DNA from: Cystobasidiopsis lactophilus
Lineage: Eukaryota > Basidiomycota > Agaricostilbomycetes > Agaricostilbales > Chionosphaeraceae
DNA length: 64,000 nt
Assembly (NCBI GenBank): GCA_001599975.1
Contig: BCIO01000002.1
Span: 2,615,883 to 2,679,882 of the forward strand
Reading direction: 5' to 3'
Part shown: positions 18,463-62,964 of the stretch, in pieces
Numbering within the stretch: position 1 is the first letter of the stretch
Layout: every line of letters starts with the position of its first letter
Program-made: the position numbers and the translations under genes
Notes under the pieces: generated by a model
Seen by the model: only the letters and a program-made list of their open reading frames with translations
Databases searched by the model: none
What the model was told of the DNA's origin: nothing

Positions 18463-20692
18463 CAGCATGTAGTGCGACTCCATCGCCGTCTTGCCCTGCT
18501 TGATTGGAAAGAATCTCGATCTCGGCTTTGAAGCCGCGGTGCATCATGAGCGCGAGCTCTCTCCTGGTAGTCCAGTCGACAATCAGTACACGTTGGAGTA
18601 ATGACCCATCTGGCATGAAGCTCACGTCAAGAGATCTGGGACGTCCTCTCGCTTTAGCAAGGTTTGGATCTTGCGACGATCGTTGGTGGTGAGCGGCAGC
18701 GTCGCGTCTCGAAGACTGGATGCTCGGTGTGCTCAGGTCGCTGACACTACTGCAGCTGTCATACTCACTGATCGTAGTCGCCCACACGCAGGCCAAGCCA
18801 ACGAAGTCGCTCGGACACCAGATTTTCGCTGTCGAAGCGCATAGCTTTGGAGCCGAAGGCGTAGCTGTTCCGCTTGGTCAGACAGAACTAGATGTCTATT
18901 AGGGGATGCTCACGTTTGATATATGTCAATACCATGGGGCTGTCCTTGCTTGGATGAGCATTCTGCAACCAAGCCCACGCCTGACCTACGTCGCTATCTA
19001 CCAAAGCCAAGACAGGCTTGTCTTCTGGAAGGAGCTGACATATCTTGGCGAGGAGACCTCTTGACGAAACGTCGGGATAGCCTTTGCCACAGATCAGCAG
19101 ACCAGCAAACTCGGGCATGAGGTCGATCAAAGCCGGGCGGAGTGATTGAAACACAGCCTGTAGGACTGCAACTTCTTCACATGTTCAGTCCAATGAAGTG
19201 GAACAGGAGCCTACCTCCTTCTCTACGACGAGCACAAAGTCGACCTGGTCCAAATCGATCTGCCTGATCGTCTCGTAGGGCGGGATCAACACGGCTCCTC
19301 CTCGACCATCGATAGTGGCGCCTTCAGAAGTATGGAGGGTGATTGGTCCAGAGAAAACTCCTTTCGAGGCGGCGACAACGTTGAGGTCAAATCGACGGAC
19401 GCCAAGCGTGGCTGCCAGATCGTCCACCAGTCCGTCGACGACTGGCTGCTTCTGAAACAGTTTGACATCTTTATAGAACAGATCTCGCTTGGACTGAAGG
19501 CTGCCTTGGCGGAGGCCGGTACAGATCAGCTCGACCAGACGGATCAGACACAGAAATGGGTTGGGGCTGGCGCTGTGCAGCTTCCTTGGGAAGCGGATTC
19601 TCTTGATCCCAGTCGAGCCATCTTCATCTTCAGCACCTCTTCGATCGGCAAGCTCGATGCAAACAGGAGCGAGCGAGGGTGAGGAAAGCAAGCGAAGGCC
19701 GCTTTTGGCCCGTGGGCGCGGTCGTTTGCGCCTAGGGTTGCTATCCTCCTGTGCTTGCTCTGATGCTGTAGAATTCTCATCGCTAGATTCGTTCTCTGCG
19801 CTCTCCAGAGTATCAGCGACGGTCGAGATGCGGTCGCCGAGCTGGAGCACGATGGACAAGGTGATCTTTGGTAGAGCGACCAAGACAGCTGCGGACTTTC
19901 TGTGAATCGACTGCATTATTCAATTGAAACGAATGGCGAGAAGCTTGAAGCTTACTCCTCGCCAGTCAGGTCAGCCGGGACACGAAAGCATTCAATGCTG
20001 CCGGTCCGAAGCTGCTCGTAGAGCTCGAGCTGCTCTTCTGATAGCTCCATGTCATCGATACTGTCATGATCAAAGGAATCTTCGTCCTCTGTGCTAGATG
20101 AGGGGCCGGCAACAGGAGCTGTGTCTGCACGAGGACGGTGGACTGGAACCGGTTCAATGACTACTGGCCGAGGCGGAGAGCTCGGCAGCACCGGGCTCCC
20201 CGGACGAGGAAGGAGATTGGGCGGACTAGGAGGCTGCGGCATAGGCAAAGGTAGAATGCGGCCATATCGCCGCAGAGGACTGCCTAGTGGTGAAGGTGGC
20301 TGGGAAGCGTAGGCTGCTCGCCTTTCGGGCGAGAAGAGGTCATCTTCGACAAGGTAGCTATCATCTTGATCCGAGAATGAGAGGTCTTCGTCGTAGGTTC
20401 GGCCCCGGGTGTCGACCAACTCCTCGTCGTCTTCCGACTCGCTGCCTTCCGCCGCAGTCTCGCGGTAGTGTTTAAACGGTTGGGTGATATCAGGCGAGTC
20501 ATTGAGATGTGCATGTAAGCCTCGGCCAGTCGGTGCGACCAGTTCGTCCTCCTCGTCTTCAAAAAGGTCGTTGACAGCTTCATCGGCTCGAGGATGCATT
20601 GGGGTCTCGGTGGATTCGGCCACAAGCTCGATGTCAGAGCTTGGCAGCGGAGTTTCAGCAGTGAGCTCGCGGTCTTCGTCTGACCAGTCCAT
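18434..20692 (-). CDS. SPO11: Meiotic DNA double-strand-break protein Spo11 with long N-terminal extension
   Basis: Topoisomerase VI A-like enzyme that makes meiotic double-strand breaks. The catalytic core has KRDLFYKDVKLFQ with the active Tyr, then VFSGPITL, LVVEKEAVFQSL with a metal-binding Glu, LLICGKGYPDVSSR, and LALVDSDVG in the Toprim fold. SYAFGSKAMRFDSENL, RWLGLRVGDYD and a C-terminal WTTRRELALMMHRGFKAEIE complete it. Upstream, an intron at 19900-19955 (GTAAGC...CAG) joins in frame to an exon of 246 codons rich in Asp, Glu, Ser and Pro (start MDWSDEDREL at 20692). This makes the protein roughly 300 residues longer than yeast Spo11. If the intron is not real, the first exon would be a separate acidic-protein gene and Spo11 would start at 19916. 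The splice joint after DSPM at about 18910-18945 is not resolved. Confidence 0.85.
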
Positions 20693-21986: not shown

Positions 21987-23668
21987 ATGAACGACATTCC
22001 TGACGATACCCGACGACCACCGACCGCAGAGCATCCATCTTGGAAGACCCAACTCGCTCTCCCTCTGCTCTTTCTCCTGCTGGTGATCTTCCTCCTGACC
22101 GACGCCTCGACAAGCACAATGGGCCTTTCCGAAAAGCTGTCTGCTCTTGGTCTGAAATCCGGCAGCAAGCCTTCCGAGGCTGGGGCGGACAGAGGCTCCC
22201 AGCAGCCAAAGCGACGTGGGTGGCGCTCGCCCTTGCCAGTTCTTTGGCAGGGGTGTCCGACATGTTCTGCGCTGACTGAAGTTTGTCGCGATGTTAGACG
22301 TGGCGTATTACACCAACTGGAGCATTTACGGGCGAAAATTCAATCCCCAAGCGCTTCCACATCAGCATCTCACCCACATTCTCTATGCGTTCGCCAATAT
22401 CAAGGACGATGGCGAAGTGCACTTGACTGATGCTTGGTCGGACTCCGACATCCACTTCGATGGCGATTCGTGGAACGACGTCGGCACCAACCTGTACGGC
22501 TGCCTCAAGCAACTCTACCTCCTCAAGAAGAAGAACCCGCACCTCAAAGTCCTTCTAAGCATTGGCGGATGGACCTACAGCCCTCGATTTGTCCAGCCTT
22601 GCTCCACGCCTACCGGTCGCGCCATCTTTGCCAAGAGCGCCACCAAGCTCGTGGAGGACTACGGTTTCGACGGCCTCGACATCGACTGGGAATGTAAGCG
22701 TGCTTTCACTGCTCGTTTGGCGTCAATCAGACTAAGCAAGACTCAGACCCCAAGACTAGCGAACAAGCTCAGCATTACGTGCTATTGCTGAAAGCCTGTC
22801 GGGAAGCGTTGGACGAGCTGCAGCGGTCCAAGCAAGAATCGGAGCCGTATGAGCTCACGATCGCCGCATCTTGTGGCTCCGATTACGAGGTCATGGACAT
22901 CAAGGGCATGGACAAGTACTTGTCGTTTTGGAACTTGATGGCTTACGATTACGCCGGATCATGGGATTCAAAGGCTGGCCATCAAGCGAACGTCTTCGCC
23001 AAAGATGACGGGACCTTCTCCACCTCCAAGGCTGTCTCCTTTTACCTCAAATCTGGCGTCAGGCCCGACAAATTGGTGATTGGTCTTCCTTTGTACGGGC
23101 GCAGCTTCGCCAACACCGACGGCATTGGAGAACCGTTCTCTGGTGTCGGCCAAGGTTCATGGGAGCAGGGCGTGGTACGTTCTGTCCTCCTCTACTCGCT
23201 ATCAGCTATAACAGTGGCAACCCTCCACACAGTATGACTACAAGGCGTTGCCTCTGCCAGGCTCGAAGGAAGAGAGCAGTGACAAGCTACTGGCTTCGTG
23301 GTGCTACAACCCTGGCAGCCGCGAGTTGGTTTCCTACGACACGGTGGATATGGCGGCCAAGAAGGCGGAGTGGATTTGCTCGTCCAAGGTGAGTCTTTTG
23401 AGTCCTCTAGCACCATCAGTGTTTTGTGAATGTGCGGCCAGCTCGGAGGTTCCATGTACTGGGAGGCGAGCGGTACGTGATATCCGACTGCTGGTGGCCA
23501 GCGTTCTCATCACAAGGTTGAGCAGGCGACCACCCTGCCGACTCGCCCAAGTCCATCCTTGCTCGTGTCTCGTCGGTTTTGGCGGCTCACGGTGGCCTGG
23601 AGCACAGTAAAAACCACCTCAACTACCCCAACTCCAAATACGACAACCTCCGCAACCGCATGGAATAG
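21987..23668 (+). CDS. GH18 chitinase with N-terminal membrane anchor
   Basis: Hydrolyses chitin, probably in wall remodelling. Catalytic barrel starts [17 protein letters not shown] or [14 protein letters not shown], depending on the joint near 22220-22295. Then come [23 protein letters not shown] with the catalytic Glu at an exon end, [26 protein letters not shown] and [16 protein letters not shown]. At least five introns. The first in-frame ATG (21987) encodes [20 protein letters not shown], then a hydrophobic [15 protein letters not shown] segment that could be a signal anchor. A second ATG ([11 protein letters not shown]) would give a soluble protein. No chitin-binding module is seen and no Ser/Thr-rich stalk follows the barrel. 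Confidence 0.9.
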
Positions 23669-45822: not shown

Positions 45823-46358
45823 AGCCTCCCGCTGAATAAACTGGCGAAGGGGGCGAATCCATTCATTCGCTGACGACGAGAAAGAGTCTATCACCGTCCT
45901 GTGAGGCTTGGCGAAGTACAGGGAGAAACGACAGTTCGACGTTCGCGTCTCGACGTCCTTGAAATTCCCAAGACGGCGTCCGAGGCACAAAGGGACCCGA
46001 ATGAGACGAATGTTCGCCACACCTTCCCATGGGCTACTTAGGGTGTTGACGACGGTCAAAGATCACTCAAAACGTGAGACTGTGCACAGGCAGCCCGAAC
46101 AGAACACGTCCAGGCTTGAGGTCGGAGTCGACTTTCGCTGCGGGTCAGTGGAGCCAGGCTCCTCTGCCTCGGTCAAACGCGCCCAAAACGTGTCGAGAAC
46201 AGACAGTAACAAGCATGTTCAGACGCGCTAACAAGCACTGGGCGCAACTGATAGTTACAGTGCAAGGTCGAGCAGGCAAACGGCGTCGTCGATGATGGGT
46301 TTCGTCAATTTCACATGCAAAATGCTGGGATATGCAAAAGATGTTACTATAGATGCGT
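45823..46358. other. Intergenic between two minus-strand genes
   Basis: Contains the promoter of the adaptor gene and the 3' region of CAR2. No exon recognised. Confidence 0.35.
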
Positions 46359-48255
46359 TCACAAAGAGACAAAGTGAGCGTTGGTATCGTGGGCGGAGAG
46401 ATCTGCGGAAGCAGCGATGAGCTACGCAAGCGAAAGGGCGCAAAGAGGCTTTACCTTCAATCTCTTCGCGCTGTGAATCACATCATAGTCAGCGCATTGC
46501 GATGTTGCAGAAGCAAGATGCAACAAACCGTATCGACCTCCTTCAAAGCCTCCTCGATGACACGGACACACTTCTCGAGATCCTCTTCGGAAATGACCAA
46601 AGGTGGAGCCAAGCGAATGGTGTTGACGTGAGTCGGCTTGGCTAGGACGCCCTTCTCCTTCATCAACAAGCACACATGCCAGGCGCCACGGCCCTTGGTC
46701 GACTTCTTCTCGTCGATGACGATTGCGTTGAGCAAGCCCAGACCTGCAAAAGCGTGTCAATATCGACTCGTTTATTTTCAAACAATCCCAAGACTTGCCT
46801 CGCACTTCCTTGATCCACCCATTGGAACGACCCTGAAGGTCTCTGAGCGATTTCCGGAAGCCGTCACCAAGCTTGCTGGCGCGCTCGCACAGGTTCTCGT
46901 CGATCAGAACATCCAGAGCTGCGATGCCGCATGCACTGGCCAGAGGGTTGCCGCCATACGTCGATCCGTCTGTACGAGGACTCATCGAAAATTTAAAAAC
47001 TAAGAACGACCGCCATTGAGAGTTAACGCACGCGAGCCCGGCGTAATGCAGTCCATGATCTCTCTTGAAGATAGGACGGCGGAGATGGGGTAGACGCCAC
47101 CAGAAAGCGCCTTGCCGACGGTCACAATGTCGGGCTTGACGTTGGGGTTGTGTTGGAAAGCAAGCCTGTGTCCAAGGTTAGCTTCCCCTTAACCAGGCAG
47201 ATTCGGGCGACGCTCACATCTTGCCAGTGCGAGCGAATCCAGTTTGGATCTCGTCGCAAATCAGAAGGACCTGTACTCGGTGGCCGACCACATCAGCGAC
47301 CAATCGATTGGAGTACTGCAGAGCACGCACATTGTGGCGCCTGCAAAGGGCCTGCACCTTCTCGAGGTAGTCTGGAGCAGGAACAATGATACCAGCCTCT
47401 CCCTGTCGCCACAATCTCAAATGTGAGGTCATGCCTCGAGGTGGTGGATCAACGCACCTGAATTGGCTCGACCAGAAAAGCGGCGACTTCCGGTCCATGT
47501 GCTTCCAAAGCGGCCTCCAAGTCCTCTATGTTGTTGAAACGGATGGTAAGAGGGTTGTTGGGGTCCTTGGGGTTGGGAACAAAAGGTCCAACGCGGTCGA
47601 GGAAAGGGCCAAAGTTCTCGCGGCACTCGGGATCGGTGGACATGGAGATGACGCCAATCGTTCGGCCGTGGAAGTTCTCGGTTACGGCTAGGATGCGGGC
47701 CTTGTTGGGAGCGACGCCTTTCTTCATGTAGGCCCAGCGCCGGGCGAGCTTGATGGCAGTTTCGTCCGCCTCTGCGCCGGTCTGTGCCAACAAACTCGTC
47801 ATTTTCGAGAACTGCAGTGATCTCTAGAGTAAAATCGTAACGCACATTCATGGGCAGGACAGCCTCGAAGCCCAAAACCTTGGTGATCTTCTCCGCAAAG
47901 TCACCCAGCAGGTTGGAATGAAAAGCGCGACTGGACAAGGTGAGCTTGCTGGCCTGCTCGGTCAGGGCTGCCACGATCTTGGGGTGGCAATGGCCTTGAT
48001 TGACCTAGTGTGCATATCGATTAGAACCAGATTGATGCAATCTTGGAGTGGCAAACTCACGGCCGAGTACGCGGACAAGCAGTCGATGTACTGGTTCCCA
48101 TCGACGTCCCAGACATGTGCACCAGATGCTCGCTCAAAGGCGACTGGGAGTGGGTGGTAGTTGTTGGAAACAAAGGTGTGCTCCTTGGTCAGGACGGCCT
48201 TGGTCTTCTCGTTCTTCGAGGCGTGCGCGCCGTTCGTCTTGAGTCCGGCAGCCAT
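46359..48255 (-). CDS. CAR2: Ornithine aminotransferase
   Basis: PLP-dependent enzyme that turns ornithine and 2-oxoglutarate into glutamate semialdehyde and glutamate, in arginine breakdown. About nine exons. Seen: [87 protein letters not shown] with the PLP-binding Asp, [20 protein letters not shown] with the Schiff-base Lys, and [18 protein letters not shown]. The C-terminal exon reads [20 protein letters not shown], then VDT; two further introns appear to add [19 protein letters not shown] and the stop at 46359. If these are not used, the protein ends a few residues after VDT at 46478. The ATG at 48255 gives [14 protein letters not shown] without a mitochondrial presequence, so a cytosolic enzyme. 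Confidence 0.95.
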
Positions 48256-48367
48256 GTTTGAATTGGATTGCTGTCTTTGCAGGTATATCGGTATGCTAGG
48301 TTGCAGGGTGAGAGCTTTTCACAGGTGGAGTGCTCGTTGCTCCGCAACCAGCGTCAGCGGCATCCCG
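48256..48367. other. CAR2 upstream region
   Basis: Only 112 bp lie between the CAR2 start and the inserted element; the promoter probably continues into the element or has been displaced by it. Confidence 0.4.
48359..48367 (+). repeat. Left copy of 9-bp flanking direct repeat
   Basis: GGCATCCCG, identical to 49260-49268; likely target-site duplication of the element between. Confidence 0.65.
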
Positions 48368-48429
48368 GAGCCCATCACGGATCAACCGGTTGACGCCGTC
48401 AAGCTTGCTCTTTGTCAAGCTTCTGGTTG

Positions 48430-48536
48430 TCAAGTAAACTGCTGCAAGCTGGCGCAAGTTTGCGCAACCTTACGCAAGCTGGCGCAACCTGCTGCAATCT
48501 GGCGCAACCTGCTGCAAGCTGGCGCAAGCTGGCGTC
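48430..48536 (+). repeat. Degenerate tandem repeat, CTGCTGCAAGCTGGCGCAA words
   Basis: About five imperfect copies of a unit near 20 bp, each holding TGGCGCAA or TTGCGCAA. The same words recur in reverse orientation at about 49035-49110 in the right half of the element, so the interior can fold back on itself. Confidence 0.75.
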
Positions 48537-48636
48537 CGTTTTGCCTTTGCCCTTGGTCAATGTGCACATTTGCCTATTGCTCTGCCCATCCTTGCCTGAC
48601 TGCTCGTTCTTATTTAAACTCAAGAGCGTCCCTGGT

Positions 48637-48696
48637 GTCAAGTTGCCCTTTGTCAAGTTGCTCTTTGTCAAGCTGCTCTTTGTCAAGCGCCACTTT
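48637..48696 (+). repeat. Four tandem copies of a 15-bp unit
   Basis: GTCAAGTTGCCCTTT followed by three near-copies with 1-4 changes each, at exact 15-bp spacing. Confidence 0.85.
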
Positions 48697-49259
48697 GCCA
48701 CGTTCAAGGGCGTCAAGTGCTTGCTTGTCGCGTCTAGCCTTCTATCCTGCCCCCATGCTTATGGTCGTTATAACTTCGGCTAAGGAAAAGGTGACGAGGG
48801 TAATGAGACGCCGAATCTTCGAGTGGCAAAAGCAAGCTTGCGTTTGTGCCAGTTGACAGGAAGCGATTTGACAAGATTGTTCTTTAAGTCGGACAGCTTG
48901 ACGAGCGGGAGCTTGCACTTGGCAACTTGTCAAGCGTCAAGGGGTGGTGGCGAAACGGGCAGCAAGGTCTAGCGGGAGGGCAAGTTGACGGACGGCAACT
49001 TGACACTTGCCAAGCTTATCGACTACATGTCAAGCGCATGTAAAGCTTGCGCAAGCTTGCGTATAGCTTGCGCAAGCTGGCGCAACTTGCCGCAATCTCG
49101 TGCAACCTTGTCAATGCTTGTACCTCCTGAAGTTGCCTGAAATCAATCCATTGCAAGCAGTTGTAAGCTCTTGCAAGCAGCTTAACCCGCTTGCAAGAGC
49201 TTGACAGCACTTGCACTTTCGGAAGTTGCGCCCGTCAACCGGTTGATCCGTCACGGCCT

Positions 49260-49268
49260 GGCATCCCG
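49260..49268 (+). repeat. Right copy of 9-bp flanking direct repeat
   Basis: GGCATCCCG, directly next to the right inverted repeat. Confidence 0.65.
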
Positions 49269-49402
49269 TCTCCAGCTTTGCTGCTCAATTGCCCGTACTT
49301 TTGGTTGTCGTTCGACCTTGCTTCTGCGCCTTTTGCATTTGTCTGCAGTCCAAGTGAGCATAGAACGACAGAGGCAGCGGCTCTCGAGAAAGTCTTGGCA
49401 AC

Positions 49403-51018
49403 ATGGCCCTCTTGTTTGACCTGCCGACGACCGGCCAGGTGTCGTTTGGGAGCCTGCTGGTGTCTGCAAATGGCATCTCCAAGAACACACGCCAAACTAT
49501 GCTGGCCTCCACCGCGCGACAGAAGCTGCGGATGGTGCTCAAGGCCAACAGACGCTCAGAAGTCGGAGCGCGAGACTTCAACCTCGTCCTGTCCACCGTC
49601 CAAGACTACCTGCCGCACTTGCTGTGGATAAAAGAATGCTGCGAGAAAGACGTGCTGCTGCCCAAACAAGAGCTGGGTTCGTTTATGCTCTTGTCCTGCA
49701 GCACTCTCGGTGCTGAGAGACTTTGTTTGATCTCGGACAGTCTTCTCCTGGCGGCCGGTGCTATACACTTCCAAACTTAAGAAGTCAAAACGAGTGGAGA
49801 TACGCTCAATGTAAGCGTCCTATGGCACCCTTAGCGTTGACGTGTGCTGATTTGGGCGACAATGCCGCAGCCACTTTGAGCTGGCCTACGTCTTGCTCAT
49901 CTACGGCCTCACATTGTTCAACATCGCCTCTCAAACGGTGGTCGCTTTAGGGGACTACGAGCACGAGCGATTCACGTCGGAGGCGGACCGGAAGCGGCAA
50001 GACGCCAACCTCAACAGCGCGGCCGAAACGCTCTGCCGGGCGGCGGGCATCTTTAAGCACCTGTCCGACAAAGTTCTACTCGAATGGAATGGGGTCAGGT
50101 CGCAGGACGACCGGCCCATCCCGCCGGATCTGAGGAGCGAGACCGTGATGGCGTTGTCGAGGTGCGTTTTCCCGTTACTTTAGTCCAGAGGACTTAGGTT
50201 GAGCCCCAATGCACAGTTTGGCCATGGCCTGTGCGGAGAGACTGGCGGTACGCAAGCTCCTAAGCAAAGCGGTGGCGGACGCGGCGGTGGCTCCTGGCCC
50301 GCCACTCCCTCGCTCCCACCCCTCGCCATCTCTGCTGGCCAAGCTCCAGCTCAACGTGCTCTCCCACTTCAAGACGGCTTCTTCTTTGATCCTGTCCAAC
50401 TCAGCGTCCCACTCTGCAGGTGACGTGGTAGGGTATCTGAAGAAGTTCATCGAGGACGGCACGCTCTTGTCTGGCGCGTTGGCTTACAAGTGGCTCGGCG
50501 TGGACCTCGGGGAGGCGGGTAAAGAGGTGGGGCAGGCAGTGGCTTGGTTGGGAGTGGCGTTGGCGGATCTGAACAAGCTGGCGGGCTCGACTGGCGGTGC
50601 GGGAAGCAAGTTGTCGGCGCTGGGCAAGAAGAAGGCACCCGCCGCCACGAAGAGTAGGCTGGGCTACGAGGTGGAGAGCGTGTCCAACTTCCTCAAGGCG
50701 TACAAGACCATCAACGACAAGGTTCGTTGCCACCTCCCTTCACGCCGGCCGCCCTTTTTGCTTACCAGTCGCGCTACCGAGCAGGTCACTTTCCAGCCGG
50801 TCCCGCCAGCAGCCAGCTTGCTTTCTCAGGTGCCAGGAGGGCGTGCAGCGCTGGCGGTCAAGGCGTTCAGCTTGCCACCGCCGAGCGTAGTGGACACCTC
50901 CGCGCCCGACGTGCCGGCGGACGAGTTGGCCGGCCTGGGTCTGGAGGGGGACAGCTCCGACGAGGAGCCTGCTGCTGGGGCCAAAGGCAGCTATGCCCTA
51001 GCTTCCGAGTACTTCTAA
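49403..51018 (+). CDS. BRO1-domain protein
   Basis: Member of the Bro1/Rhophilin/Alix domain family, which binds ESCRT-III or related partners. Six exons. Seen: MALLFDLPTTGQVSFGSLLV, DFNLVLSTVQDYLPHLLWIK, then VFSWRPVLYTSKLKKSKRVE, spliced to HFELAYVLLIYGLTLFNIAS, which is the core BRO1 helix pair. LNSAAETLCRAAGIFKHLSD and SLAMACAERLAVRKLLSKAV follow, the latter with the usual conserved Ala-Gln-Glu region changed. YKWLGVDLGEAGKEVGQAVA and an acidic tail (GDSSDEEPAAG) end it. At about 470 residues it has only the BRO1 domain, without the V-domain of Alix/Rim20, like BROX or fungal stand-alone forms. Confidence 0.82.
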
Positions 51019-51771
51019 TAGCCCAATGCCTAAATCAAAACATTGGGCGTTTCATGCCACAAGTGAGAGATCGCGGCCTTTGAGAGGAAGGCGAAAAGGA
51101 CGCTCGCCTCGCATCCAACTCGATAGCGTTGAGGCCTTTGACCGGGTCTCAGTCCTTGCCAGTCCCTTCAAGGTCAAATCCAGCGCAGCCCCGCCCAGAG
51201 CGAAGAGCCCGACCAACGCCAGTTGTTCTCGTCTTTCCTGCAACTCCTTGCGCTCGCGGTCGCCTGCCCATCCTCCTGTCGCCCTCTGCCCTCGCTCCTC
51301 GCGCTCGCCCCTCGCAGCCTCGACTGAAGCCCGCGCTCGGAACCGCACGCCAGCCAGCCTTGACCAGTCGAATCGAAGTCGCCTTTTTTCCTGCTTTGCC
51401 CGCCCGCCCGCCTTTGTCCCCTTTGCGCGCTGCTCCAGGTTCGTTGGCTCCGTCCCCTCCTGCGCTTGCGTCTAGATCTTGGGTGCTGTTGTCGGTGGCG
51501 AGGGTGGCGCGGGGTTATCGGTCGATGCCAGGCGAGGGCGCCGCCACGTCCCTGCTCAGCTCTGGCCCGTTCCCGCATTACCTCTGCTCCTCAGCCCTCG
51601 TTTGCGCTCGATGACCCATGCTGACCTTCTGTTCGTGCTTGCTGACAGGCTTGAACACCTCGACCCAGCTCGGCCGGCCCTAATCAGCGCTCGAAACCAG
51701 CCAGGAAGCCCCAAGCTACCCGGACAACCGCCGAAGCTTCCTCCTCTCCCAATTTCCTTTAGACGGTCGCC
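51019..51771. other. Pyrimidine-rich region upstream of PP1
   Basis: About 750 bp, strongly C/T-rich on the plus strand between 51180 and 51770 with many CCTTGCTCCTC-type words. Such tracts are usual in promoters and leaders of highly expressed basidiomycete genes. Open frames here are low-complexity Pro/Arg/Ser and I do not take them as coding. Confidence 0.5.
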
Positions 51772-54361: not shown

Positions 54362-57300
54362 CTACTCGGACAGGCTGAAACCTCGCTTGACCTGGGTGAC
54401 CGGGGAGGTGTTGGGGTCGAAGTCAACCTCGGGTGGCGGCCGGCTGGTCTGTACCCGGCCTTTTGGATTCATGAGCGCTCCTTGAGTGGTGGCATCGATG
54501 GCAAGGGAGCGAAGGTGGGCGGCCTCTGCCTCTCCGATGCCCAGCTCGTCTTGAGGCAGCCAGATGGGCTTCATTTCCTCCCAGATGGCCGGGTGCTCGA
54601 AGGCCTGATAAAGGGGGCTCGGCTCCAAGGTCCAACAAAAAATGCAGGGGCAAGACTCACATGCTCGCTTACTTCGGGATCCTCTTCTTTCGCCTCGTCT
54701 TCGCCTTCTGGGCGATCGAGCTCCTCCATGTCAAGCTCTTCGGGCTCGTCAGTCATCGGGGCGGCGTTGGTGCCAATAGCCAGCTTCTTGAGAGCGCGGA
54801 AGTGGGAGCTTTTGTTGAGCGGGTTGGCGCCAGAGACGCCGTCCTTCATCTTGTGTCCGCTTTCCTTGAGCTTGGAGTATGTCCTCGCTCCCGCTTTTCC
54901 CACGAACGCTCCTCCGCCTTTAGCTGCTCCTGCAAAAGGCTGGATACCGCCCTTGATCATCCCGGCGAATTTGGCATCCTTCTGCGCAGGGGTGTATTCT
55001 CCAGCAGCGTCGTCGATTTTCATGCCAAGGTTCAAGGGTAGGTTCTTAATGAGCGGGCCGTAGCTGGTGAAGATGAGGAGGTGGTACAGAATGGTGATGA
55101 CGATAAGCACGACCGCGAATGCGCCCTCTGGGATGGCTGAGGCACGGTTGTTGCTGTCTCGGGCGAGGAAGAAAAGCCCAGCCATGCAAAGCATCTCGAC
55201 GTAAAGACCTGGTGCGCTCTTAGAACTTGAGCGCAGATATGAGAGGCTAGTGCTTACCGGTAAAGATGTGGTGTATTGACAAGGGGAAGAACAGGCCTCC
55301 CGTCTCGCCCGCATCGGGCTGGTCGTAGACCCACGTGAACAAGTACTTATATGCAAAGGCGAATAAGATGAATGCGAAGCAGGCGAATGCGTTGATTATA
55401 GGGGCGATGACCGAGTAGGCAATCGAGATGACGGTACTGGAACGCGGATCTGGTTTAAGCTTCGGGTGCGTTTACCGCACTCACGCCACTTACAGAAGGG
55501 TCATGTTGGGAAACAGCGTTCCCCATTGGGTCGATTGCATGTTGTTTGTGGTGGACCAGACTTTGCGAGGCGTCGAAGCCAGGAGGAACAGGAAGACATA
55601 GTGCAGAGCCAGCGTGACGATTTGGACAAAGGACGAGGCGGCGCCAGACAGTCCAGTGGTGATGATGTACGTGAGGAAAAAGTTGCTGTAATTGATCGCG
55701 TGAGACAATGTTGGGCCACAATCAGTCGCAAACCTACCTGGCATCTGGAAGATTTTGGGCCAAGATGGTAACGGTGGAAGCTGGGTTTTCTGCGGGTCAA
55801 GCATGAGCAGGTGCGTGAAAGCAGAAGCAGGCCAAAGTTGTAGCTGACCTGAAATTTGTGGCAGAGAAGCGATAAGGCCGCTCGCAAGGGTGCACACGAG
55901 GAAGCCGTGAATGACAAGGAAGAGGAAGTAGCGTTTCATGAGCGACACTTCAACGAGAGATCGCAGAGGGATGCCCTCGAAGGTGGCCATAAAGCGCAAA
56001 AAGATGGGCAGGAGCAGGAAGAGAACAGCTAGAGCCACCGGAGGCAGCACGCCTTGGATGATGCCGTTGATCGGGACCGGCAGCTTGCAAAGCCACGCAA
56101 TCCAGCTGTATTTAATACACAGTTGGTTGACATTGGACAGCAGGGCGACGAAGGCGACTGGGAATGTCCATGCGATGACCAAGCCGATTGTCGCCGCCCA
56201 AGAGATGATGTAGCGGATCTTTTGCTGATAGGGATTTATGCCGAGGTTGTTGAAGATCACATCTTCCGAAGCGACCTCGGTGTATCTGTCAGACATCCGG
56301 AGCGGCAAGTGATGCATGAGCGACTGCTGAAAGATGTGCGCTCCGATTTGCGAGTTGAAGCGGATGAAGGCGGACGAGTCGGGTGGGCGCTTGTCGACCT
56401 CATTGCGCTCCGCTTTGAGCGCGTCAGACACGGTGACCAGTTGAGCCTTGATGTAGTCGATCTTGTCCGTCTTGATGCCGAAGAAGGGCAAGGGCAGCTT
56501 CTTGTTGATGCGAACGGTGGGTCGGTCCTTGCGATCGACCAGCTGGTCCGTCAAGTTGCCATCCTTTTCAGGGTCATACGACTTGAAGTAGCGTTCCGTA
56601 TTGTTTTCTGGCGCCGTTGCTTTACGGTAGTGTTCCGTGTTGCCTTCTGGCGCCGGTGATTCACCGTAGTGGTCCGTGTTGCTGTCTGGCGCCGGTGCTT
56701 CACCAGTCGGTGCCGACTTCTTGACTGCCTTCTGGTGCTCCTTTTCCATCTTGGTCTCGCCCTTCCGCCTCTGATTCACTGCTTTTTTGATCAAGCTCGT
56801 CTCTGCAGACTCTAGCTGTCCGCAGAGTTTGGTCTGTTCGGCGTAGAGCTTCGGCAAGCGAGAGCCGATGTTGCGGACCAGCCAGATGCGCTCGTAAGAC
56901 CCGGGCATGTACTCTGACAGCTTTGCAAGGGCTTTTTCGTTCCTGAACTCGGGCGGGAGGCCGGTGACGAGGACGGTCTTGCTCTGCGGCAGGACCAAGT
57001 GCTGGCGGGACGAAAGAAACTCGTGGCGAAGCGTCACGAACTCTCTCATCTCCTTCCATATGAGGTAGAACACCCAGAACGTGAAAGCGTAGAGCAGAAT
57101 GAGGGGCAGGGCGTATCGAGTCTGTTTGCCGGTCGAGACATCTGGGCTCGTCGTCAACCTTGAGGCTTCCAGCAAACTGAAAGGGGACACGTACTGCCAA
57201 AGGTCAACTTGTAAAGTCCTTGCTTGTCGCCTTGACCCGTGCCATAGACCTGTCCGCCGCTGGATCTCAGAATTCGAGATAGGAGGGAGAGGAGCAAGGC

Positions 57301-57796
57301 CGCCCACCGGCAGGAGCAAGATCCAAGACACCACCCACAATGGGCCAAAAATCCAGATCTGGAGGTACAGATACCTCAGGAACATGTAGGCCTGACGAAC
57401 CCAAGGGCGGTCAGCTCCCCTATCACGCAAGGCCATGTCTGAAGCTTAAACGCACATCAAGGCCATTCTTGCTGATGACGTCCTTGCTGTCCGCCCTCCA
57501 TATCGTAATGACCCAGCCAAACAGAGACCTGGGCAAGGCTGCCACCCGGTCCTTTGCCAACAGCGGAATGTACGTGCGCGGCTGGTAGATGATGGGAAAG
57601 GCGCGAAAGATGAGGGCGAAGACGCCGACTTCCACCGAGGCCACAATGAGGTTGGTGACCAAGCTAGTCACAAAGGACTGCGTCGACACCGATTTGGCGA
57701 CATCTGAGGACGAGGCGCCACTTGAATGCGGCCAAGCCCAAAATCAGCGTCATAGCGAGTGGGATCTCCAGGGCCAGCGACTCACGTATTGCTCAT
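54362..57796 (-). CDS. CSC1/TMEM63-type osmosensitive cation channel (DUF221)
   Basis: Ten to eleven membrane helices of the hyperosmolality-gated channel family. About nine exons. The first has MSNT only; a 60-nt-type intron joins it to GASSSDVAKSVSTQSFVTSL. Next come VEVGVFALIFRAFPIIYQPR, YMFLRYLYLQIWIFGPLWVV, QTRYALPLILLYAFTFWVFY, then a long cytosolic loop with TVLVTGLPPEFRNEKALAKL and RPTVRINKKLPLPFFGIKTD. The channel core has ISWAATIGLVIAWTFPVAFV, GVLPPVALAVLFLLLPIFLR, FLFLVIHGFLVCTLASGLIA, and FFLTYIITTGLSGAASSFVQ. Later helices end before a cytosolic tail with ELDMEELDRPEGEDE. A 39-bp unit repeated three times (56589-56705) expands the cytosolic loop. Closest to RSN1/PHM7-like members by overall plan. 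Confidence 0.9.
56589..56705 (-). repeat. Three in-frame copies of a 39-bp unit in the channel gene
   Basis: Period is exactly 39 bp (56589, 56628, 56667). It encodes a 13-residue motif of the form AP-E/D-x-NT-E/D-x-Y, seen as APAPDSNTDHYGE, SPAPEGNTEHYRK and TAPENNTERYFK, inserted in the cytosolic loop before the conserved SYDPEKDG. Confidence 0.88.
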
Positions 57797-58150: not shown

Positions 58151-59743
58151 TTAGAACTGATGATGCTCCGACCGCCGTGCGCCACGAAACTGCCTGCGCG
58201 CAAACACCCGACCAGAGTAGGTGGAGAACTTGTTGCCGAGAAAATGGACAGCTCTGGGGTCGTCCAAGATGGCCAGGTCAACCATAGACGGTGCAAACAG
58301 GCCGAACGTCCTGTTCGAAGGGTAACGTTTGAGAAGCACGCCACCGTCAGAGATTCGAAGCTGACCTGTAAGTGTCCAGTTCGGTGTGGTTGACGACAAC
58401 ATAGCTACGCTCTTCGAAGGCTTGTAGCTCCGCGGCGTCCTCGGTGTTGGAAGCGATCACCATTTGGCAAGGGGCTTCTGAGCGGGCTGCGCTCTGAACC
58501 ACCAGGCCACCGCACGCCCCTTCGTGCACCTTTTCGATAAGCTCCGTTGCTTGCTCTAAAGTAGGGTAACAATGTTGAAGCTCGCTGGCGTGGGAAGCTT
58601 CGCAGTATTCCTTGAAGTCGCCGCGTCTAAAGTGAACGGCGGCGAAAGGCGGGACGTCGCCGATATTGGACGCGAAGTCGGTCTCGCTGAGGATGGCAAC
58701 GATTTGGTCGGTAGATATGTCGCGGGAGAGGAGGTGGCTCAGGCGCTCGGCCCAACTTCCGGCAATGTGCATGGCAGAAGTCTTGAGGAAAATCTTCGAA
58801 GCCGCTTGGAGCCATGGCTGATAGCTCAGTCGGCCCTCGAACTGTCTGTAGAGCCCAGGTGGGCTGGACCGAATGCGCGAAAAGGTTGAAGTGACGCAGA
58901 CCACTTTGTCGTCGGCGTCCTGTTGCAAGAAATCGACCAGCTCGTCGAACTGCAAAAACGGTCGCTCTTCTGTGTAGCCGGCTGTCAAGTTGACCTTCCA
59001 GTTGAGTCGTTTCGCCAAGAGCCTGAAGACAGACGATCCCCATGGCGCCTCCTTGACGCCGGCGTCCATCCGTCCAGGCGCGTTGTGGCAACTAAGGTAG
59101 CCATCTTCGCTGGGAAGCAGCTGCCGCTTCAGCGCTTCGTCAAAGTCGATCGTTTTGACGTCCAACGTCTTGAAGTCCAGGAAGTTAGACCATTCTCGGG
59201 TTTCTGTCGGGGGAAACCGACTGAGCGCAAATCCCGCGCCACTTGGAAACCCTGACCCACGGCCTAGATCCGTTCCATTGTAGTGATAGGAAGCGATGTG
59301 AGGTGGGACAATGAGCGTCCGGTTTAGAGCTTGGGCGATCATCAAGCCTTCGATGACGGCTGTTGTAGGAAATAGTGAGCTTTGATTCTCTCATAAATCA
59401 TGCAGCATACTGTGCAACTGATTAATGTTCCCACCAGTCGGGAAGGCGACAAAGAAGCGTTCGCGATCGTCGGGATCAGCCAAAACCGGCGGGACGACGT
59501 TCTCGACTGGGAGTCGGTCAGGCAAGTGCAAAGGCCAAACCAACGGGCGGTGTAGGAACCAGACACTGGTCATGCAAAGGGCTCCAATTGCCAACAGGAC
59601 CTTGGATCCCTTCTTCTTGTTCCTTGTTGCGGTCCAGGCTGGTGCCGGAGCGTGGGCTGGATCTGAGCGGGCGAGTGTTAAGCCGACAATGCGCGCATGG
59701 AGACCAACGAGGAGGCCTTACCCATTGTAATTTTCGTGTTCAT
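58151..59743 (-). CDS. O-fucosyltransferase-like protein, copy A (type II membrane)
   Basis: Predicted Golgi or ER glycosyltransferase of the GDP-fucose protein O-fucosyltransferase-like superfamily. Four exons. A tiny first exon (MNTKITM) is spliced to DPAHAPAPAWTATRNKKKGS and the signal-anchor helix VLLAIGALCMTSVWFLH. GGNINQLHTVIEGLMIAQAL, NRTLIVPP, and FAAVHFRRGDFKEYC are the conserved donor-binding parts. IASNTEDAAELQAFEERSYV, VVNHTELDTYR and a last exon with VDLAILDDPRAVHFLGNKFS follow. The protein ends HHQF at 58151. It is a tandem duplicate of the gene at 60819-62398 with the same exon layout. The acceptor protein is unknown. Confidence 0.82.
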
Positions 59744-60818: not shown

Positions 60819-62398
60819 CTAAAATTGGTGGCGTTCCTTTACGCCCCGGAAAAGCCGGCGCGCAAAAACCCAAGCAGAATAAGTGGAGAACTTGTTGCCC
60901 AGGAACTGGACAGCTCTGGGGTCATCCAAAATGGCCATGTCGACCAGGCTTGCGGCGAACAGGCCCATAGCGCTGTGCGAACAAATGCGTGAGAACCCAA
61001 CTGCTCTCTTCTAACTCTTGGAAACGAACCTGTACGTATCCAGCTCGGTGTGATTGACGACAACGTAGCGTCTCTCTTTCAAATGCCCGGAGCTCGGCAG
61101 CGTCTTCCGTATTGGATGCGATCACCACCTGGCACGGCGCTTCGATGTTGCCTGGGTTCTCGTGCGCCAGGTCACTGCAAGCCTCCTCATACACATTTCC
61201 GATGAGATCCATCGCTTGCGTCAAGGTGGGGTAGCAGGCCTGCAGCTCATTCGGGTGATACTCTTGGCAGTATTCCTTGAAGTCACCCCTTCTGAAGTGA
61301 ACGGCAGCGAAGGGTGAGACGTCGCTGGAGCTGTGCACAAAGTCGAGCTCGCCGAGGGTCGAAAGGACCTGGTCGGTGGAGACGTCGCGGGAGAGGAGGT
61401 GGCTCAGGCGCTCGGCCCAAGTCCCGGTGATGTGCATGGCCGAAGTCTTGAGGAAGATCTTGGAGGCCACCTGGAGCCAGGGTTGGTAGTTGATGCTGCC
61501 CTCAAACTTGCGGTATAGGCCAGGCGGGCTGGACCGGATGTGTGCGAAGGTGGAGGCCAAGCACACCACTTTGTCGTCGTCCTTTTGCAAGAAATCGACC
61601 AGCTCGTCAAATAGCAGGAACGGCCGCGCTTCCGTGTAGCCGGGTGTTATGTTGAGCTTCCAGTTGAGCCGATGCATTAAAATTCGAAGGTCAGTCGAGC
61701 CCCACGACGCCTCCTTAAGGCCAGCGTCCATGACTCCAGGCGCGTTGTGGCAAATGAGATAGCCATTCTTGGCCGAGCTTGGAAGCAGATGTCGCTTGAG
61801 TGCCTCTCCAAAGTCGATCGTCTTGACGTTGTCGTCCAAAGTCTTGAAATCGAGGAATTCGGACCATTCTCGAGTGTCTGCCGGAACAGCTTTGGGCACA
61901 GAAGCAAAGCTCAAAGGGGGAAATTGCGCACGGCCGTGATCCATCCCCATGTAATGGGTCGAAGCAACACGAGGAGGGACGATGAGAGTCCTGTTCAGAG
62001 CTTGGGCGATCATCAGGGCTTCGATAACGCCTGATCTCGGGTTGAATAAGCGCAGGCCGCACCCAGAGGACGTTTCCAACGCACCATGGAGCTGATTTAG
62101 GCCTCCTCCAGACGGAAAAGTGGTCAAGTACCGTTCTTCTTGATCTGGATTTGGGGTAGAGCTGTTGGAAGTGGCAGGGTGGTTGGCCGAGGGCCAGTCG
62201 ACAGCATTCCAGTTGTGCAGAACCCAAATGCTGCCAACCAAAATGGCGCCGATGCTTAACAGCAGCCTGAAGTAGCCTTTCTTCTTGTAGTTCGAGTTTG
62301 TCGTGGCCCAAGCCGGTGGAGGAGCTCGGGACGGTTGTTCTGGAGCCAAGCTGTCAGATCGTGTGGACTCCTGCCCTTGCGGAAGCCGCCTTACCCAT
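60819..62398 (-). CDS. O-fucosyltransferase-like protein, copy B, frameshifted near its 3' end
   Basis: Same plan as copy A: short first exon (M), EQPSRAPPPAWATTNSNYKK, signal anchor LLLSIGAILVGSIWVLHNW, GGGLNQLHGVIEALMIAQAL, NRTLIVPPRVAS, FAAVHFRRGDFKEYCQEY. At IASNTEDAAELRAFE the frame parts from copy A because of one extra base in a GA-rich run at about 61068-61082. As written, the frame goes on with unrelated residues to a stop at 60922. Downstream sequence still carries the splice joint and last exon (MGLFAASLVDMAILDDPRAV, stop at 60819) with conserved residues. So either this copy recently lost its normal end, or the extra base is a sequence error. Confidence 0.75.
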
Positions 62399-62964
62399 CA
62401 GATTTTCAGTCCCAGCATAATCTGAGGCAGAGCCAGGGTGAATGCTGTGTCACGAATTGTGAGACTGTTGACAGCTGAACAAATGCCACGCTCACCCTCG
62501 CTCGCTGGCTGCCTCGTCGTACATCATCGTCGCTCGCTGTCGAAAGAGAGTCTCCAAACGCAAAAGCAGCATGACGGGAAGAGGGATATTATCACAGTCC
62601 TGGACAGCAAAAAAAGAGGGTTCGCCGCTCGCCGCTCTCTGACACAAAAGTGACAGCACATTTTCGGATGCCTGTGCACTCCTTCTTGCTTCACACCTTA
62701 AACTTCAAGAGTCACCTTAAACTTCAAGAGTCACACAAGTGCTCCAGTGTGGTAAGGTTGGAGGCTTGCTTACATTGCAAGCAAAGTCCATAAAATCGAA
62801 ATGTTCAATAAAAAGCAACATGTGTGCAACGCCAAAGCTTGTACACGCCAATGAACTTTTCTGTGTACAGCAGGCGTGAAAAAGAAGGCATTCAGTTGCC
62901 GCCGCAGGGTGTAAAAAGATATGCGACCCACCATTCCACCAAATCGCAAGGGGCCATATTTGAC
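62399..62964. other. Intergenic
   Basis: About 570 bp; has a direct repeat CACCTTAAACTTCAAGAGTCA in two adjacent copies at about 62694-62734. Otherwise nothing. Confidence 0.45.

Follow-up and report, generated by a model that had tools for sequence, protein, structure and literature searches.

A probable non-autonomous DNA transposon in the short divergent promoter region of a CAR2-like gene

We analyzed a 64-kb stretch of DNA ("the window") and considered an element of 891-893 bp that lies between a CAR2-like gene and a divergent neighbor with a weak match to the BRO1 domain. The best explanation is that a non-autonomous class II (cut-and-paste) DNA transposon inserted once into the short promoter region that these two genes share, and we put the probability of this at roughly 90%. 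As mobile elements go, this one is real but commonplace in kind: such elements have been described in print for a basidiomycete yeast (PMC9713403). The locus illustrates cleanly how a non-autonomous DNA transposon can fill a compact divergent promoter.

Inverted ends and target-site duplication

The two ends of the element match in inverted orientation. A 19-bp core, ACGGATCAACCGGTTGACG, occurs at 48377-48395 on the forward strand and at 49233-49251 on the reverse strand, with no mismatches between the arms and at exactly the coordinates that an earlier note on this DNA had given. When up to 3 mismatches are allowed, the core has two matches in the window, which are the two ends of the element, and it has no matches in any of 100 shuffles. 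The same note had extended the core, with mismatches, to about 27 bp; by our measurement, the left terminal inverted repeat (48369-48395, + strand) and the right one (49233-49259, - strand) are each 27 bp and are complementary at 24 of 27 positions (89%). All three mismatches are among the eight outermost paired bases, which we counted against the transposon reading. Because the core contains a 12-bp palindrome (TCAACCGGTTGA, at 48382-48393 in the left arm), it can also be read as a direct repeat.

Outside of both arms is the 9-mer GGCATCCCG, at 48359-48367 and 49260-49268, which is absent from the rest of the window. The earlier note took this as a 9-bp target-site duplication. The two copies are indeed exact, but their placement relative to the inverted ends is asymmetric, as the 9-bp reading adds a G to the left end and none to the right. 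If the element is symmetric, then it could run from 48368 to 49260 (893 bp), with an exact 8/8 duplication (GCATCCCG, at 48360-48367 and 49261-49268) and with its outermost base unpaired. Or it could run from 48369 to 49259 (891 bp), with a 10-bp duplication (48359-48368 and 49260-49269) that matches at 9 of 10 positions. The duplication fits no single length cleanly.

We compared these features to what would be expected by chance. Within 5 kb, perfect inverted pairs reach at most 19 bp here and at most 12-17 bp in 100 Markov windows of equal size, and a direct repeat of at least 9 bp near the ends was seen for just 3 of 20,000 random pairs of positions. Two or more copies of GGCATCCCG are also found in 20 of 100 shuffles, so the two copies mean little on their own, and it is their position at the ends of the element that counts. 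For a joint test, we took the 8-mer direct repeats of the window, of which 8,039 pairs are 80-5,000 bp apart, and scored the inverted matches just inside each pair, out of 28. The element's pair ranked best of the 8,039, with 24 of 28 matches. The runner-up in the window, with a score of 18, is within the repeats of the element itself. Across 100 null windows, the best score per window ranged from 15 to 19. Taken together, the inverted ends and the duplication are far beyond chance, and they are jointly the best in the window.

We found no second copy of the element in the 64-kb window, either by searching for the core with up to 3 mismatches or by blastn of the whole element. (Comparing the element to the rest of the window with blastn gave two short and weak matches, with E = 0.064 and E = 0.17, which we took as chance.) Having just one copy in 64 kb is a point against the transposon reading. 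More broadly, the exact 19-bp core has no matches in viral contigs, and it matches 5 stretches in genome contigs of bacteria and archaea. These are from five unrelated bacteria, with one match each, and about 2 matches would be expected (uniform 257 billion bases).

The earlier note also called the element a MITE. It is short and non-coding, with inverted ends and a duplication (891-893 bp, with no Pfam domain), which agrees with that label; the multi-copy family that the label also implies is hypothetical, with one copy in 64 kb. Also, 891-893 bp is long for a MITE. As to published descriptions, we met none of this element in the titles and abstracts of part of the matches for MITEs in Rhodotorula or Rhodosporidium, basidiomycete Mutator-like MITEs, and Pucciniomycotina. 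In PMC8481953, MITEs come up just in the list of references. Three 14-base pieces of the core had no match in the paper text that was searched (supplements and letters broken up by spaces are outside its scope).

Repeats inside the element

The interior of the element is rich in short repeats, which we describe from left to right on the forward strand. Units of about 15 bp, of the GTCAAG...TTGCTC type, occupy 48398-48434, and they are followed by an array of 10-bp units of the AAGCTGGCGC type (48436-48535). Further in is an array of about four copies of the 15-bp unit TGTCAAGTTGCTCTT (48636-48697), and a 30-bp stretch at 48977-49006 is 83% complementary to 48635-48664. On the right side, there is another array of 10-bp units, of the AAGCTTGCGC type (49043-49110), which has the same orientation as the left array; the two are about 75% alike over 126 aligned positions. 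Lastly, subterminal units of about 20 bp occupy 49151-49215, which also includes a 32-bp inverted pair (75%). The interior also differs from the rest of the window: it has 42 words of the [GT]CAAG type, counting both strands, while the median for the window is 7 per 893 bp, and TTGTCAAG occurs six times inside the element and nowhere else in the window. The difference in GC content is small (0.526 vs. 0.561).

All of the tandem arrays that we found at the locus lie between the ends of the element (48398-49215). This bears on a quite different explanation, which is that there is no transposon, and that we are looking at a repeat-rich divergent promoter with arrays of sites bound by a host regulator, whose ends form an inverted pair by chance. 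In favor of this are the location of the arrays in a promoter region, their partial palindromes, which are common in regulator sites, and the single copy in the window. However, the arrays are confined between the ends, and the score of 24/28 for the inverted ends and the flanking duplication exceeds the top score in every one of 100 null windows (15-19). We consider this explanation to be very unlikely.

We also considered a foldback element with long arms. As a single strand, the element folds far better than 20 shuffles of it do (z = -8.8). Nevertheless, we rejected this candidate: ungapped identity at mirrored positions is 0.62 in the first 50 bp and 0.38 or below after that, and we found no long composite inverted repeats of the Foldback type, which would pair from one side of the element to the other. 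When the two halves are compared to each other, the direct score is 85 (maximum of 200 shuffles, 30) and the inverted score is 56 (maximum, 29). Since the halves are more alike in direct than in inverted orientation, it is too simple to treat the subterminal arrays as stretches of long inverted ends.

No transposase frame had been seen inside the element in the earlier note, and our results agree: comparing its six frames to Pfam shows no recognized domain. Five of the six frames have no match at all up to E = 1, and we rejected the match of the sixth frame to DUF6287 (E = 0.28) as being at the level of chance. The window as a whole has 120 stop-to-stop frames of 140 codons or more; we scanned 70 of these with Pfam (E = 0.001), and none of the 70 matched a transposase family. 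Separately, a 200-codon open frame on the + strand (48254-48856) runs from opposite the CAR2 start codon into the element; it has no Pfam match and is probably due to chance.

If the element is a transposon, then its transposase would have come from an autonomous relative elsewhere in the genome and would have acted in trans. We infer that this transposase would most likely bind the 27-bp inverted ends along with the phased 10-bp and 15-bp subterminal repeats. The element would then have been excised by cut and paste and reinserted, and a staggered cut at the target would account for the duplication of 8-10 bp. A more elaborate version of this is that the element represents an undescribed family of fungal transposons, in which the 12-bp palindromic core within the short inverted ends and the helically phased 10-bp arrays, which lie near both ends and share one direction, form a binding platform for the transposase, with the element today accounting for the greater part of the promoter between the two genes. 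We think that this whole combination is improbable.

Superfamily and similar elements

The earlier note assigned the element to the Mutator-like superfamily, and we also favor that assignment over hAT, at slightly better than even odds, which are a matter of judgement and were not computed. The target-site duplications of MULEs are 8-11 bp (PMC6446971). Their terminal inverted repeats were 14-500 bp in one survey (PMC6446971), with typical ends of over 100 bp (PMC5225508, PMC6446971). The element's duplication adjoins its inverted ends and has a suitable length however it is read (8/8, 9/9 with an asymmetric end, or 9/10), and its ends are within the range of the survey, but at 27 bp they are far shorter than is typical. 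At 8 bp, the duplication would not be specific to MULEs. Mutator-like elements do make 8-bp duplications (PMC5225508), and so does Zisupton (PMC12730594). The label was based on how long the duplication is, and because this can be read as 8, 9, or 10 bp, the label is plausible only, and Mutator-like is one of several live superfamilies.

The same insertion could instead have been mobilized by a hAT transposase, which is compatible with the insertion and changes only the superfamily. The element would then be 48368-49260, flanked by the exact 8-bp duplication GCATCCCG, with both ends equidistant from the core. We view this as possible but as clearly less probable than a Mutator-like origin. Duplications made by hAT elements are 8 bp long, and hAT transposons have been described with subterminal repeats (PMC4763223): repeats of this kind are reported to matter for Kat1, a hAT-type transposase, and that study cites similar findings on further hAT elements. 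Also, some MITEs with 8-bp duplications in a basidiomycete yeast were ascribed to hAT by the authors of that study (PMC9713403). However, 8 bp is not a strong argument for hAT because Mutator-like elements make 8-bp duplications too, and in the 8-bp reading, the outermost bases are unpaired (the left end begins with G and the right end reads C). The ends of hAT elements typically carry A as the second base and G as the fifth. The ends of this element, GAGCC and CAGGC, have the A but not the G. The remaining probability, beyond Mutator-like and hAT, goes to superfamilies that are neither, such as Zisupton.

Several known elements resemble this one. Muta1, a family of Mutator-like elements from Aedes aegypti, is described as having a palindromic terminal motif, short subterminal tandem repeats, and duplications of 8 or 9 bp, as here, and its non-autonomous derivatives have variable interiors (PMC5225508). 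The likeness is by description, and the inverted ends of Muta1 are 145 bp instead of 27 bp and its repeat units are 12 bp instead of 10 and 15 bp (PMC5225508). Among yeasts, the Mutator-like element Mutyl from Yarrowia lipolytica has similar ends and duplications (imperfect 22-bp ends and duplications of 9 or 9-10 bp), but unlike our element, it is 7.4 kb at full length and codes for a transposase (PMC5014426, PMC6446971). The MITEs of Dioszegia hungarica are non-autonomous, and one related to Mutator has 10-bp duplications, while those ascribed to hAT have 8-bp duplications; this likeness is also by description (PMC9713403). D. hungarica is a basidiomycete yeast with a GC content of 57% (PMC9713403), and the window has 56%. 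The Tm1 family (Mutator/Foldback) of root-knot nematodes has composite ends in which a unit of about 14 bp recurs, short outer motifs that are not inverted, duplications of mostly 8-10 bp, and MITE-like members (PMC3169594). In contrast to our element, which has a 27-bp inverted part and one known copy, Tm1 is present in multiple copies, whose composite inverted repeats vary in length (PMC3169594). In another superfamily, the mimps are MITEs of 200-220 bp that are found in fungal promoters and have ends of about 27 bp (PMC3599309).

The insertion site and its neighbors

To the left of the element, at 46300-48255 on the - strand, is the CAR2-like gene, a gene with introns for an ornithine aminotransferase. 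(The range is the stretch that we searched, and the 3' end is approximate.) The best NCBIfam match in each of three frames is TIGR01885 (ornithine--oxo-acid transaminase), although the match is split by introns and is below the cutoff for the full-length family. Among proteins of known structure, the best match is a chain of PDB entry 5viu that is named acetylornithine aminotransferase, followed by chains that are named ornithine aminotransferase, so it is NCBIfam that supports the more specific name. On the other side of the element, at 49403-51018 on the + strand (with approximate exon ends), is a gene in which one of three frames has a weak match to the BRO1 domain (E = 0.0015, and 18 bits, below the cutoff of 35.1). 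We take this gene to be PalC-like. There were no Rfam matches in 47000-51500, and a tRNA scan of the window, which used the bacterial code, found none. The introns, the GC content, and the genes present suggest that the DNA is from a fungus, perhaps a basidiomycete.

As the earlier note had stated, the insertion is 112 bp from the CAR2 start codon: the A of the ATG is at 48255, and we counted 112 bases. On the other side, 134 bp separate the element from the start codon of the neighbor. This gives 246 bp in total, including one copy of the duplication, and when the flanks are joined without the element, they form a plausible divergent intergenic region of that length.

Just 112 bp and 134 bp of other DNA separate the element from the two start codons, a count that takes in a single copy of the duplication, so any control sequences located farther from either gene would be within the element or on its far side. 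This raises the idea that the insertion was co-opted, so that the transposon's repeat arrays now regulate both CAR2 and its divergent neighbor. This would be an addition to the insertion, not a replacement for it. The three mismatches between the ends do not give a date for the insertion, and we think that co-option is unlikely. What was originally proposed, a MITE beside CAR2 that could provide its promoter, is a reasonable hypothesis; the insertion itself is the one part of it with good support. If strains differ at this site, then they would provide a natural test of the insertion's effect on the two adjoining genes.

We made a few other observations elsewhere in the window. Two frames on the - strand, at 58350-59390 and 60925-62397, match GDP-fucose O-fucosyltransferase, one below and one just above the curated cutoff, and these are perhaps a tandem duplicate. 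A long frame at 55493-57445 (- strand), which matches RSN1/PHM7 channel domains, contains three copies of a 39-bp (13-codon) tandem repeat at 56588-56704. There is also a perfect 19-bp tandem repeat, with 2.2 copies, at 62694-62734. A type IIB topoisomerase domain at 19188-19919 (- strand) is presumably Spo11-like. Finally, a family-18 glycosyl hydrolase extends across two overlapping frames at 22276-23234 (+ strand).
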